A stretch of 21,202 nt of DNA, from IMG/VR virus record IMGVR_UViG_3300033151_000339, positions 1-21,202 of that record; one strand, given 5' to 3'. This document shows, piece after piece, positions 5,227-16,522 of the stretch (position 1 is the first letter of the stretch; each line of letters starts with the position of its first letter). The notes under the pieces are model-generated. The model did no database searches, was not told the origin of the DNA, and saw nothing but the letters and a program-made list of their open reading frames with translations. This DNA is from a virus. The translations under genes and the position numbers were made by a program.

Positions 5227-6447
5227 TTACGCGTCGGCTACGGTAGGAACTTCTGTCCCATATCCGGCTTCCGCGACATAAACTCCGTCAACATCTGGGT
5301 CGTTGCGGGTGTAGTACACATCCCCGCCAGTTTGCTTGAACTCCCAGGTATCAACCGCATCCCATTGCAGAACGAACATGCCGTCGATTCGAACGTAGAC
5401 TGCATCTGCGGTGTCAACCGTGCCGCTGGCAAGTACATAGTCGCCAGCTACAGCAACGTCGAGCGTATCGCTTTCGGTAATCGTTTTGACGACGGTATTC
5501 AGCGGGTGCTTGAACATGATCATATCGGTTTCGGTGATCGCGTCCTTGATCGCCTGCCATTGGAGGGCTTGCATAACGTCGGAATTGTTTCCCTGCACCT
5601 GAACATTGCCCTGTGAGAACTTCACTTTCGGGAAGGTGACGCAGTACCCGTTTCCATCGCCATCGGACAGCACGAAAGAAAAGCTGATCGCGTCGCCGTT
5701 GATGAACTTATTATATAGCGTGAGACCGTCGAAGTAAGCGTTCATGTTTCCGGTGACTTCCCGCCGCCCGAAACCAATGCCCTTCGCGTCTACGTCGGGG
5801 TAGTTCGTCGTTGCAGTCGAGAACCCCTTCTGTGAACGAAGGTTGTTGTTCAACGTGAACGACAAATCAGAGAACACCAATTCCTCGGCAACGCCGATAA
5901 CGGCCAATGCCCGAAGTTCTGGAACGCTCATCACATCATTCGTATTCGGATCAACGTAGGTCGCCCCGGAAAGCGGTGCGGTTGCAGGGGCTTCCCCGGC
6001 TCCAAGGAAGTTAAACACGGCCTTGATGACGGAATCGGTCGTGATGTCTACCGCCATCGAATTTGAGCGGCTTCCTTTATACCGGAACAAGTAGTCTGTC
6101 GTTCCGTCCGTGATTCCTTTCTCGAACGTCATCGACTTGATTGCGTTTCCGGCTTTGAGGATTCCGGTGTCCGCGTCGAATGTCCCGCGTAGCGTGGCTT
6201 CGAAGAGTTCATCGAACTCGCTACCGAACGAAAGCTCGGTGTTGATGTCGCCCTGCGCCCCGCCGCCTACGCGAATCAGGTCTTTTACGGACGCGGTGGG
6301 GTCGAGTTCTTCGGATTGGATGGACTCAAGCGAACTGCCCAAGCCTTCGCCGGTAATGCGTACGCGCCGGAAAGCGGGTGTCGCGGGGGTGACTCCCCAA
6401 TTCACTTCGGGGATGAATGCAATTACTGAACTACTAGCATCTATCAT
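5227..6447 (-). CDS. Major tail (tail tube) protein
   Basis: A 406-residue protein whose N-terminal two thirds look like the siphovirus tail tube family: an opening strand with AFIPEVNWGVTPATPAFRRV, the segment ESIQSEELDPTASVKDLIRVGG, then FGSEFDELFEATLRGTF. These are typical tube protein landmarks. It is about 100 residues longer than a minimal tube protein; from about residue 318 onward (VVKTITESDTLDVAV) it carries a beta-rich C-terminal extension with DGMFVLQWDAVDTWEF that could be a surface decoration domain on the tube. Ribosome binding site CAGGAG is seven bases before the ATG. It lies between the tail terminator-like gene and the tail chaperone gene, the standard position. The tube role is confident; the extension's function is unknown. 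Confidence 0.9.
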   Translation of the reverse strand: MIDASSSVIAFIPEVNWGVTPATPAFRRVRITGEGLGSSLESIQSEELDPTASVKDLIRVGGGAQGDINTELSFGSEFDELFEATLRGTFDADTGILKAGNAIKSMTFEKGITDGTTDYLFRYKGSRSNSMAVDITTDSVIKAVFNFLGAGEAPATAPLSGATYVDPNTNDVMSVPELRALAVIGVAEELVFSDLSFTLNNNLRSQKGFSTATTNYPDVDAKGIGFGRREVTGNMNAYFDGLTLYNKFINGDAISFSFVLSDGDGNGYCVTFPKVKFSQGNVQVQGNNSDVMQALQWQAIKDAITETDMIMFKHPLNTVVKTITESDTLDVAVAGDYVLASGTVDTADAVYVRIDGMFVLQWDAVDTWEFKQTGGDVYYTRNDPDVDGVYVAEAGYGTEVPTVADA

Positions 6448-13851: not shown

Positions 13852-14856
13852 TTACGCCTTGGTCTTGATGACGGCCATCGGGATCCGCTTGCGGGCGTGT
13901 ACTCGATCCCAGCTTGCGGCGGCAGCGAGCTGCGCCCACGTCGGGGATTCGCCATTCGTGCCGTGCGTGGTTCCGGTATAGGTGAACCCTACCGGATGAC
14001 AGGCCAGCTCAACGCGGCTGAAGATGGTTTCCTGTCCACCGCCGTCACCGGCGGCAGGATCGCGCTTGACCTCGACCGGAACTTTCGGCGCGCCATTGCC
14101 GATAGCAACGGAGTTCATGCCGAACAGCACGGAGGTAAAGATCGGGTCACCGCCATTGGCATCGACCGGCATGGCGTCGTCCATGATCACGCGCTTGCCC
14201 ATGTACGTCGGGACAGTGGCCTTGCCTTCGCTGTCCAGCACATAATCGATCAACTCGCTTTTCAGCAAACGAGCCATTACGATGGAATGCACTGCAACGG
14301 CACCAATGATTCCCATGCGGTCGCCAAGCGTGACAAGCGCGTCGACAAATCCGGTGCCGGTGAAGCTTCCGTCACCAACCGCCGTGATGTCGTTGATCAT
14401 GTCGCCGCTGTCGTTCGCGACGTTGTCGGCAATCAAGCCAACAAGCGAGTTCATGAGGATCTTCTGACGCTGGGTCATCCAGTACTTGGACAACTGAGAC
14501 TGAACCGCGCCGAGGGGATCGGGGCCGTACAGGGCTGCCGTCAAATCCATGGAGCTAAAGGACTCGTTGCGGCTGTGGCGCAACAGCGTTTCCTTGCCGC
14601 CAGAGAGTTTCTGCGGAGCGCTGTCACTCGCGGGGTCGTCGCTGGACTGGTTGGATTCGTCTTCGCCCAGAGCGTTGATGAATCGCTTGGAGTACGTTTT
14701 GCCGCCTTGCGGGCCGTTCAGGAATTCATTGACTTCGGGGTCGACGAACGCGATGCCCGACTGGATAAGGGCGTCGAGCGTGATGGACTGCTGGATCATT
14801 CCGGTGTTGAACAATTCGCCGACAATGATTAGGTCTGTGAGTTGGGTAACTGCCAT
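13852..14856 (-). CDS. Major capsid protein (gp13-like coat family)
   Basis: A 334-residue protein starting MAVTQLTDLIIVGELFNTGM. The early segment with SITLDALIQSGIAFVDPEVNEFL, followed by GGKTYSKRF, a variable charged loop, then DLTAALYGPDPLGAVQSQLSKYWMTQRQKILMNSLVGLI, fits the 'major capsid protein 13-like' coat family (HK97 fold): 'ALIQSGI-x-x-DPELN', 'x-DLA-x-ALxGxDPMxAIxxxxAxYWxRxxQ'. The C-terminal half contains HSIVMARLLKSELIDYV and GKRVIMDDAMPV, another recurring piece of this family. The ribosome binding site AGGAGG (14863-14868), six bases before the ATG, is the strongest in the window, consistent with high expression. It lies between the scaffold-like gene and putative head accessory genes. 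Glycine codons are mostly GGC near the start. Confidence 0.88.
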   Translation of the reverse strand: MAVTQLTDLIIVGELFNTGMIQQSITLDALIQSGIAFVDPEVNEFLNGPQGGKTYSKRFINALGEDESNQSSDDPASDSAPQKLSGGKETLLRHSRNESFSSMDLTAALYGPDPLGAVQSQLSKYWMTQRQKILMNSLVGLIADNVANDSGDMINDITAVGDGSFTGTGFVDALVTLGDRMGIIGAVAVHSIVMARLLKSELIDYVLDSEGKATVPTYMGKRVIMDDAMPVDANGGDPIFTSVLFGMNSVAIGNGAPKVPVEVKRDPAAGDGGGQETIFSRVELACHPVGFTYTGTTHGTNGESPTWAQLAAAASWDRVHARKRIPMAVIKTKA

Positions 14857-14944
14857 GGTAAACCTCCTGTGTTAACTTTTTGCTGAGGTCTGCGACGTCA
14901 GCGGTTTTTAAACAGCCTCGTCGCCCATGGCACCCGAGAGAACT

Positions 14945-15020
14945 TGGAGCGAGAGGATGGATTTGCACCATCGGCCTACACTCTGGACGAGTATCGCTCT
15001 ACTAACTGAGCTACTCTCGC
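14945..15020 (-). tRNA. tRNA-Gly(UCC)-like gene with atypical conserved positions
   Basis: A 76-base cloverleaf of exactly standard numbering on the minus strand. Acceptor 1-7 GCGAGAG pairs perfectly with 66-72, discriminator U73, CCA encoded. D-stem GCUC/GAGC; anticodon stem AUACU/AGUGU with one U-G; T-stem GAUGG/CCAUC. Anticodon UCC at 34-36 and A37. The G1-C72, C2-G71, U73, C35 and C36 set matches bacterial glycine identity elements. But three conserved sites differ: G33 instead of the universal U33, A18 instead of G18, G55 instead of U55; C32 and G38 could also pair, tightening the loop. U8-A14, G15-C48, G19-C56 and U54-A58 are kept. Either a functional specialised tRNA, a decayed one, or a tRNA-like processing signal between scaffold and capsid. 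Confidence 0.82.
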
Positions 15021-15059
15021 GCTCCATCTGCACCGACACATTGCCCCGTGCATGGACAA

Positions 15060-15087
15060 ACAGGTCGCACATTTCTGCACGACCTGT
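15060..15087 (-). other. 8-bp hairpin between scaffold gene and tRNA-like gene
   Basis: Arms at 15060-15067 and 15080-15087 (ACAGGTCG with CGACCTGT) enclose a 12-base loop, 33 bases after the scaffold stop. The minus-strand sequence after it is TTGTCC, so a weak terminator or a processing hairpin is possible, upstream of the tRNA 5' end. Confidence 0.45.
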
Positions 15088-15119
15088 CAACACCTTTTGC
15101 AACACTATGTGTTACTGCG

Positions 15120-15881
15120 CTACGCGGCAACGCCAGCGGCCTTCTTCAAAGCCTCGGCTTTCGAGGGATCTGACTGCATAACGACGTGCTGCTGTGTTAC
15201 GTTGAACGTCTCTTTTGCCCACGGGTTATCGACTGGCGGATTCCCGCCCTTGCCGCCCTTCGACTTGCCCGGAGTGCTTTCCGGTTCCCAATGCACAGAC
15301 GTTTCAAGCTTCTTGGCCAGCCAGTCCTTGACCGAAAGTGCGGCCCCGGCCTTGCAGGTTTCCTTCGTGACAACGTTCCCGGACTCGTCAAGCTCAAGGT
15401 CTAGGCCAGCATGTAGAAGCACGTCCTCGACTGCGGTATCGCGAACCATGCCGTTTGCCACATTCATTACGGCAACATCGATCTTGCTCTTGCTGAAGTC
15501 GCCACGCAGACCAGTGAGGTCGCCTTCGGATTTTTCAGCACGCTGCGTCATAGCCGTCAGGTCGCGGGTCAGATTCTTGGTGCGAACCTCGACCATGGCC
15601 GCTACTTGGGCCTCGATGTCTTTGTCGCCAACCTTCAGCCCGGCAACCTCTTCTTCGAGCGTGGCAATGGTTTCGGGCGTGTGCTCGCCGAACTTCGCAA
15701 CGACGGCCTTGAATCTCGTGACATCGGTACGGGCGGCGGTTAGCGAGGTCTGCATGGTATCGAACTCCGCCTGCGGCTTTGCGCCAGAGCATTGCAGATG
15801 CCACTTGCCGTCAACCTCCTTGTAGTGATTCTTCAGGCCTTCCGGGATGTCGGCGGCGTTGTCATATACGAACTTCAGCAT
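15120..15881 (-). CDS. Head scaffold-like protein (phage minor structural gp20-type)
   Basis: A 253-residue protein, MLKFVYDNAADIPEGLKNHY at the start, then YKEVDGKWHLQCSGAK, a combination typical of phage scaffold-type proteins ('M-x-x-x-x-x-x-x-x-IPExLkxxYxexdGkyxL'). Residues about 38-125 are a long charged helical/coiled-coil segment (SLTAARTDVTRFKAVVAKFG, TIATLEEEVAGLKVGDK). The tail (200-253) is Gly/Lys-rich (GKSKGGKGGNPPVDNPW), then QQHVVMQSDPSKAEALKKAAGV, which may contact the capsid. AAGGAG precedes the ATG by nine bases, and the start overlaps the upstream gene end by 20 bases. Directly upstream of the tRNA-like gene and capsid, the usual scaffold position. No protease domain is visible, so cleavage, if any, would need another enzyme. 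Confidence 0.82.
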   Translation of the reverse strand: MLKFVYDNAADIPEGLKNHYKEVDGKWHLQCSGAKPQAEFDTMQTSLTAARTDVTRFKAVVAKFGEHTPETIATLEEEVAGLKVGDKDIEAQVAAMVEVRTKNLTRDLTAMTQRAEKSEGDLTGLRGDFSKSKIDVAVMNVANGMVRDTAVEDVLLHAGLDLELDESGNVVTKETCKAGAALSVKDWLAKKLETSVHWEPESTPGKSKGGKGGNPPVDNPWAKETFNVTQQHVVMQSDPSKAEALKKAAGVAA

Positions 15882-16134
15882 GTTTCTTGTCTCCTTGGTT
15901 GGTTTGTTTTTCCGAACTAAATACGATGTCTTTCAGGCGGTCGCCGAACTTCGCCAGATACTTCCTGTGTGCCATCAGCTTGCCGTCCTTGGTGATTTTT
16001 CCGACCTTGCGCACGGTTCCGTCACCACCACCGTCGTCATAAACGGTTCCGGCGTGATCTACGCGGAAGCGGCTTGGTTTGCCCTCGGTGTTCTTAAGGC
16101 GACCGCCTCGGTATATTAATCGTCTCTTTGGCAT
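15862..16134 (-). CDS. Small basic hypothetical protein
   Basis: A 90-residue protein. I chose ATG 16134 (MPKRRLIYRGGRLKNTEG) because AAGGGA sits seven bases before it; a start 57 bases further up would lie inside a stable hairpin. The sequence is basic (RVDHAG, DGTVRKVGKITKDGKLMAHRKYLAKFGDRLKD), with a glycine/aspartate turn (YDDGGGDGTV) and a polar C-terminus (KQTNQGDKKHAEVRI). No membrane segment or signal is present. It lies between the exported protein and the scaffold gene; the overlap with the scaffold start suggests coupling. Possibly a small head-internal or DNA-binding protein; no family recognised. Function unknown. Confidence 0.62.
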   Translation of the reverse strand: MPKRRLIYRGGRLKNTEGKPSRFRVDHAGTVYDDGGGDGTVRKVGKITKDGKLMAHRKYLAKFGDRLKDIVFSSEKQTNQGDKKHAEVRI

Positions 16135-16158
16135 TTTATTCCCTTTGCTGTTGTGCAA

Positions 16159-16189
16159 GCCGCCCCGCCCCACGAGGGAACGAGGCGGC
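16159..16189 (-). other. 13-bp GC-rich hairpin in the leader of the small basic gene
   Basis: Arms 16159-16171 and 16177-16189 pair over 13 positions, three as G-U on the minus strand, around a five-base loop (CTCGT). This is very stable. It lies between the exported-protein stop (16202) and the next start (16134); the 3' flank begins TTGCAC, with no T-run. A transcript-processing, stabilising or attenuating hairpin is likely; it is not a standard terminator. Confidence 0.5.
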
Positions 16190-16201
16190 ATAAACCAAGA
16201 C

Positions 16202-16522
16202 CTATCCAGACGGATCTTGGTTGACCTTCACCCAGTCGTTGGTGGTCGCCCCGTAGGCAACCCACAGCGCATTTGTGCCTGTGTCGATCTTTCCGACCAG
16301 ATACTGACCGACTCCGGCAGGCGTATATGCCGTCGCAACGGTCGTGGTGTTGGTATCGACCTGCACTACATAGCGCAATGCAATATCGGTGTTCGCCTGA
16401 CCGATTGACACATTGATCGACCTTGTGCCGTTCTTGCCTTTCTTCAGGCTGTCAATCGTCGCATAAGACACGGTCGCAACGGCCAACAACGCCAATGCCA
16501 TCAATAATCCTGACTTCCTCAT
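16202..16522 (-). CDS. Small exported protein of unknown function
   Basis: A 106-residue protein with a Sec signal peptide (MRKSGLLMALALLAVATVSYA, cleavage after SYA). The mature 85 residues are Thr/Asn/Val-rich and beta-like (NGTRSINVSIGQANTDIALR, TNTTTVATAYTPAGVGQYL, TGTNALWVAYGATTNDW). AAGGAG lies seven bases before the ATG, after a small GC hairpin at 16544-16559. It sits between a head morphogenesis gene and the scaffold region, an unexpected place for an exported protein. No family was recognised. It could be a decoration or exclusion protein, or a cell-surface factor like the other exported genes further on. Confidence 0.72.
   Translation of the reverse strand: MRKSGLLMALALLAVATVSYATIDSLKKGKNGTRSINVSIGQANTDIALRYVVQVDTNTTTVATAYTPAGVGQYLVGKIDTGTNALWVAYGATTNDWVKVNQDPSG

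Follow-up and report, generated by a model that had tools for sequence, protein, structure and literature searches.

Does a gene that folds like a tRNA, and in which G18, U33 and U55 are replaced by A18, G33 and G55, give rise to a working tRNA, to a signal for cutting the mRNA in which it lies, or to the remains of a captured tRNA? This question is raised by a 76-nt element in the head operon of a phage, found in virus record IMGVR_UViG_3300033151_000339 (the window, i.e. the whole stretch of 21,202 nt analysed here). A sequence-only reading of the window had proposed either a specialised tRNA or a tRNA-shaped cleavage signal, and we evaluated both, together with decay, by folding, covariance models and comparison with viral and cellular genomes.

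A tRNA-Gly gene between the scaffold and capsid genes

The element (14945..15020, minus strand; CCA encoded) was found inside the capsid operon, where the sequence-only reading had placed it: the head scaffolding protein gene (15120..15881, minus strand; phrog_206, E = 1.5e-21) lies upstream, and the major head (capsid) protein gene (13852..14856, minus strand; phrog_247, E = 1.5e-95), preceded in the sequence by an AGGAGG ribosome-binding site (14863..14868, minus strand), lies downstream. Neither a promoter-like site nor a minus-strand terminator-like site was detected in 14500-16300, and the 21.2-kb record contained no second tRNA. The minus-strand sequence, GCGAGAG-UA-GCUC-AGUUAGUA-GAGC-G-AUACU-CGUCCAG-AGUGU-AGGCC-GAUGG-UGCAAAU-CCAUC-CUCUCGC-U-CCA, was assigned as tRNA-Gly(UCC) from the Rfam match, an ARAGORN hit at this location, its fold and an orthologue in phage L401. 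Its elbow pair is A18-G55, and its anticodon loop contains G33 and C32/G38. Read as Gly(UCC), the tRNA forms every one of its 21 stem pairs (acceptor 7/7, D 4/4, anticodon 5/5 including one U-G, T 5/5), and the 3' end consists of U73 and the encoded CCA. The Rfam tRNA model (RF00005) scored 52.9 bits on 14945-15020 (E = 5e-9; gathering cut-off 29), and by this score and the four canonical stems the element belongs to the family, with A18-G55 in place of the G18-U55 elbow pair and G33 in place of the U33 of the U-turn. The cloverleaf is also the minimum-energy fold (-28.5 kcal/mol, z = -3.7), in which C32 pairs with G38, a further unusual base, and by inspection the tertiary core is otherwise intact (U8-A14, G15-C48, G19-C56, U54-A58). 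The element is a genuine tRNA; its perfect stems of standard length and its three replaced bases, all read directly in the sequence, had been described correctly.

ARAGORN located a tRNA at the same coordinates and called it tRNA-Trp(CCA). This register restores U33, but it slides the anticodon stem by one base and requires a U.U mismatch and odd spacing. In bacteria the tRNA-Gly determinants are G1-C72, C2-G71, U73, C35 and C36 (PMC9976931), and all of them are present in the window tRNA, in agreement with the glycine identity elements and CCA noted earlier. The Gly register is favoured because of the glycine-type acceptor stem, U73 and the aligned L401 orthologue, which ARAGORN itself reads as Gly(UCC), and a tRNA-Trp at this locus is very unlikely. 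The earlier comparison with staphylococcal glycine tRNAs turned out to be weak. The non-proteinogenic staphylococcal tRNA-Gly is likewise a glycine tRNA with altered conserved bases, but its lesion differs, since the pairs 49-65 and 51-63 that contact EF-Tu are described as lost and it serves cell-wall synthesis (PMC9976931), whereas in the window tRNA both positions are paired (G-C and U-A, respectively) and the gene resides in a phage head operon.

A18 and G55 as a covarying elbow pair

Joint loss of G18 and U55 had been taken as a sign of selection away from ordinary translation. In viral loci fetched irrespective of the T-loop, with identical tRNAs counted once, 698 distinct tRNAs had G18/U55 and 6 had A18/G55, while G55 without A18 occurred in 0/712 (p = 4.7e-12), some A18/U55 cases in this count looking like D-loop parsing errors; G55 was thus always paired with A18 (6/6) in tRNAs not selected on the T-loop. 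An IMG/VR pattern search for G55 with any base at position 18 gave 42 loci (36 A18, 5 T18 and 1 G18), where the five T18 loci were one family and the single G18 locus was not well formed. Applied to bacterial and archaeal genomes, this pattern yielded at least 110 well-formed tRNAs, with 101 A18, 8 G18 and 1 T18 among the matches listed. The cellular A18-G55 tRNAs listed came from Elusimicrobia, Omnitrophota, Patescibacteria, archaea, Mycoplasmataceae and others, and had U33 in nearly all cases and ordinary anticodons. Near-complete suites of A18-G55 tRNAs, including Leu and Tyr tRNAs, were present in phages L246, L260, L270/L279 and L271. These comparisons indicate that A18 and G55 make up a single compensatory swap and not two losses, and that A18-G55 is a recurring alternative elbow pair in other phages and several microbial lineages; the argument for a departure from translation is not supported, since the covarying pair occurs in many ordinary-looking tRNAs with U33.

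The window T-loop, UGCRA, fits the UGNRA class of loops, in which the G often forms a pair with an A from outside the loop, giving a composite GNRA tetraloop (PMC2258182), and residue 18 of tRNA intercalates in the T-loop (PMC4810234); these two properties would explain the coupling of positions 18 and 55. The UGNRA lonepair triloop, or T-loop motif, of rRNA and riboswitches (PMC2258182) is matched in the window tRNA by its UGCRA T-loop, with G55 paired to an A from outside and a predicted composite GNRA tetraloop; in the window tRNA, however, the motif sits in the tRNA elbow and replaces G18-Psi55. Judging from this class, A18 would enter the T-loop and pair with G55, and G55-C56-A57 plus A18 would form the composite GNRA tetraloop, preserving the L-shape. 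The swap eliminates both U55, the target of TruB, and G18, the target of TrmH methylation, and it predicts tRNAs that are independent of TruB or TrmH; with near-complete sets in phages, one may ask which host factor is being avoided. The G18-Psi55 elbow is regarded as universal, and the swap suggests that it can be rebuilt with another known RNA motif. We found no prior report of it in the literature searched, where most subscription journals are not covered, and this class is the part of our results likeliest to surprise tRNA specialists.

The G33 anticodon loop in phage tRNAs

U33 is regarded as nearly universal, and the window tRNA has the anticodon loop CGUCCAG, with G33 and with C32 facing G38. 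Searching IMG/VR for Gly(UCC) with G33 gave two real, unrelated phage tRNAs (L396 and L400), both having the identical CGUCCAG loop and canonical G18/U55; the L396 locus also has a second Gly(UCC) tRNA, with U33. The IMG/VR pattern for Gly tRNAs with A18 and G33 together gave no match. With a pattern covering one D-arm type only, no G33 was found in cellular Gly(UCC): the loop was CUUCCAA in all 43/43 matches from one phylum (289 genomes), and a second phylum (399 genomes) yielded no G33 match. G33 occurred in 6 of 1,374 distinct tRNAs, namely the Gly tRNAs of L396 and L400, an Asn pair (L263 and L371) and single tRNAs in L256 and L094. Since most A18-G55 tRNAs have U33, G33 is independent of the elbow, and on these comparisons the G33 loop appears to be a second variant, separate from the swap. 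Both members of the Asn pair, tRNA-Asn(GUU), have G33 and A18-G55 (L263 400-475, viral contig; L371 1360-1435, genome contig). The L094 tRNA (2229-2306) has the anticodon UUA, which would read the UAA stop, in the loop CGUUAAG, and is suggestive of G33 accompanying C32-G38, although the search that found L396 and L400 already required C32 and R38.

A tRNA-Leu with G33 decodes with medium efficiency (PMC1991585), and the Candida tRNA-Ser(CAG), which shares a natural G33, decodes with reduced efficiency (PMC1991585, PMC4695839); the Candida tRNA, however, is eukaryotic and tied to codon reassignment, whereas G33 here occurs in a phage glycine UCC tRNA with C32/G38. In the parts of van den Berg et al. 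2023 considered here (PMC10264068), phage tRNAs likewise depart from the cellular norm in the anticodon loop, and such mutations are proposed to evade nucleases; the window tRNA adds a purine at 33 and the elbow swap, neither of which is mentioned in those parts. The recurrence of G33 in phage tRNA-Gly(UCC) offers a handle on whether phage tRNAs give up decoding for protection.

Conservation of the tRNA and its surroundings

L401 is the closest phage found (capsid 67% identical) and has its orthologous tRNA-Gly(UCC) in the same scaffold-capsid gap. Between the two tRNAs, pairs 6-67, 29-41 and 50-64 differ at both bases and yet remain paired, and the anticodon, U73, CCA, G1-C72, C2-G71 and G3-C70 are unchanged. 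The L401 tRNA is canonical at G18, U33 and U55, and shows anomalies of its own, U19 facing C56 and an unpaired A30.C40. The homologue alignment advised by the sequence-only reading thus gave stem covariation, as in a tRNA gene held under structural constraint, and the three odd bases were not shared. Canonical bases in a relative had been named there as a mark of sequencing error or decay; they were found in L401, but with U19 and A30.C40 in that very copy, error or simple decay is not the better reading. The tRNA seems to be maintained at this gap in the lineage of the window phage and L401, and the proposal of a specialised tRNA held up, with stems that covary between the two and a G33 that recurs in other phage tRNA-Gly(UCC).

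In the fetched stretches of about 150 capsid relatives, tRNAs were present only in L401, L410 and L436, the latter two elsewhere than at the junction. The first 80 relatives had no tRNA close to the capsid gene, nor was one present in the 153 nt upstream of the capsid gene of the close relative L158 (61% identical); therefore, the tRNA is not a general requirement of the wider group. Searching IMG/VR by capsid sequence alone gave no relatives, and a terminase search returned 29 loci, of which only L004 and L027 had tRNAs, neither matched to the scaffold-capsid junction. Annotated phages with 38-42% capsid identity had no annotated tRNA at the junction; DNA matches to the window tRNA in annotated phages were short pieces only, and the L400 tRNA had no close DNA match among them.

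The junction is highly structured (z = -5.4). Folds and the junction alignment revealed a 13-bp hairpin, capped by a GAAA tetraloop, that lies after the scaffold stop and before the tRNA 5' end (15059..15088, minus strand), and the leader comparison revealed a CUCGGGUGCCAUGGGCGACGAG element, with a CUCG/CGAG stem around CCAUGGG, in the capsid leader downstream of the tRNA (14917..14938, minus strand). Both are conserved in L401, the hairpin with a C-G to U-A change, and the two junctions also share GGGCAAUGUG and CUCGGGYGCCAUGGGC. Many relatives have a strong hairpin at the equivalent place, soon after the scaffold stop, and a CCAUGG(G) motif in their leaders, often 50-90 nt upstream of the capsid start. 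Symmetric pairing around AUGG in the leaders was modest, RNAalifold on the aligned leaders gave no consensus structure, and no Rfam family was found for the capsid leader among 17 relatives. Since few relatives have a junction tRNA, it looks as if the scaffold-capsid leader was already structured when the tRNA came to be inserted there. The structured leader itself recurs (L158-L237, L150, L151, L157; 14917-15088 in the window) and is possibly an undescribed regulatory RNA.

Function of the tRNA

Most likely, the gene encodes a genuine, maintained phage tRNA-Gly(UCC) that is released from the late mRNA and glycylated, with an A18-G55 elbow and an independent G33 variant. It would be transcribed within the polycistronic head-gene mRNA and presumably excised by the RNase P of the host together with a 3' nuclease, separating scaffold mRNA from capsid mRNA as a side effect; the conserved identity elements suggest charging with glycine. 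By the precedents above, the CGUCCAG loop would make decoding of GGA/GGG less efficient without abolishing it, and it may shield the tRNA from host anticodon nucleases. Against a working tRNA, G33 together with C32-G38 might reduce the anticodon loop to a triloop and thereby harm decoding, and the defects of the L401 copy suggest that the locus may tolerate decoding faults. GGC dominates the Gly codons of the capsid gene (23 GGC, 6 GGA and 1 GGG), so that codon use gives no sign of a need for tRNA-Gly(UCC).

Next in rank, as a possible though not a probable explanation, comes a tRNA-shaped signal at which RNase P and RNase Z (or E) cut between scaffold and capsid to define a structured 5' end of the capsid mRNA, decoding being irrelevant. 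Splitting by RNase P/Z fits the tRNA position, which is common to L401, and such a signal would agree with stems that covary while positions 18, 33 and 55 (window) and 19 (L401) differ, with the strong flanking structures, with the hairpin and CCAUGGG elements recurring in relatives, and with another phage, L249, in which an A18-G55 tRNA separates a P22-like portal gene from the head gene that follows. Mere cleavage, however, needs no UCC anticodon, glycine determinants, U73 or CGUCCAG loop shared with other phage tRNAs; moreover, the elbow is compensated rather than lost, and the junction is without a tRNA in most relatives. With the tRNA in the capsid leader, its proposed role in splitting scaffold from capsid mRNA can be tested directly. 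The last of the three, a captured tRNA that is decaying or freshly mutated, with G33 and perhaps A18/G55 accidental, is improbable: A18 and G55 changed jointly and match a class in unrelated genomes, the stem pairs are all intact and evolve by compensation, and the G33 loop is identical in L396 and L400, even though L401 is canonical at all three positions and itself has U19 and the A30.C40 mismatch.

Beyond a working tRNA-Gly at this locus, we tentatively suggest that A18-G55 might be a second functional elbow (composite GNRA, no Psi55/Gm18) adopted wholesale by some phages, and that the CG-NNN-AG loop (C32-G38, G33.A37) might be a parallel rebuild, the two together allowing phage tRNAs to function, or to split mRNA, and yet to evade host enzymes that read the standard elbow and loop.

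The L249 tRNA (6240-6315) has a CAU anticodon and lies directly 3' of the portal gene in the head operon. In phage contigs or MAGs (L241, L251, L255, L278, L291, L331, L242, L253, L256, L265, L274 and L276) we also observed tRNA-like elements that have T1-A72 ends and combine G55 with A18 or T18; their anticodon loops are often 6 nt long, and some of the elements lie close to small repressor-like genes.
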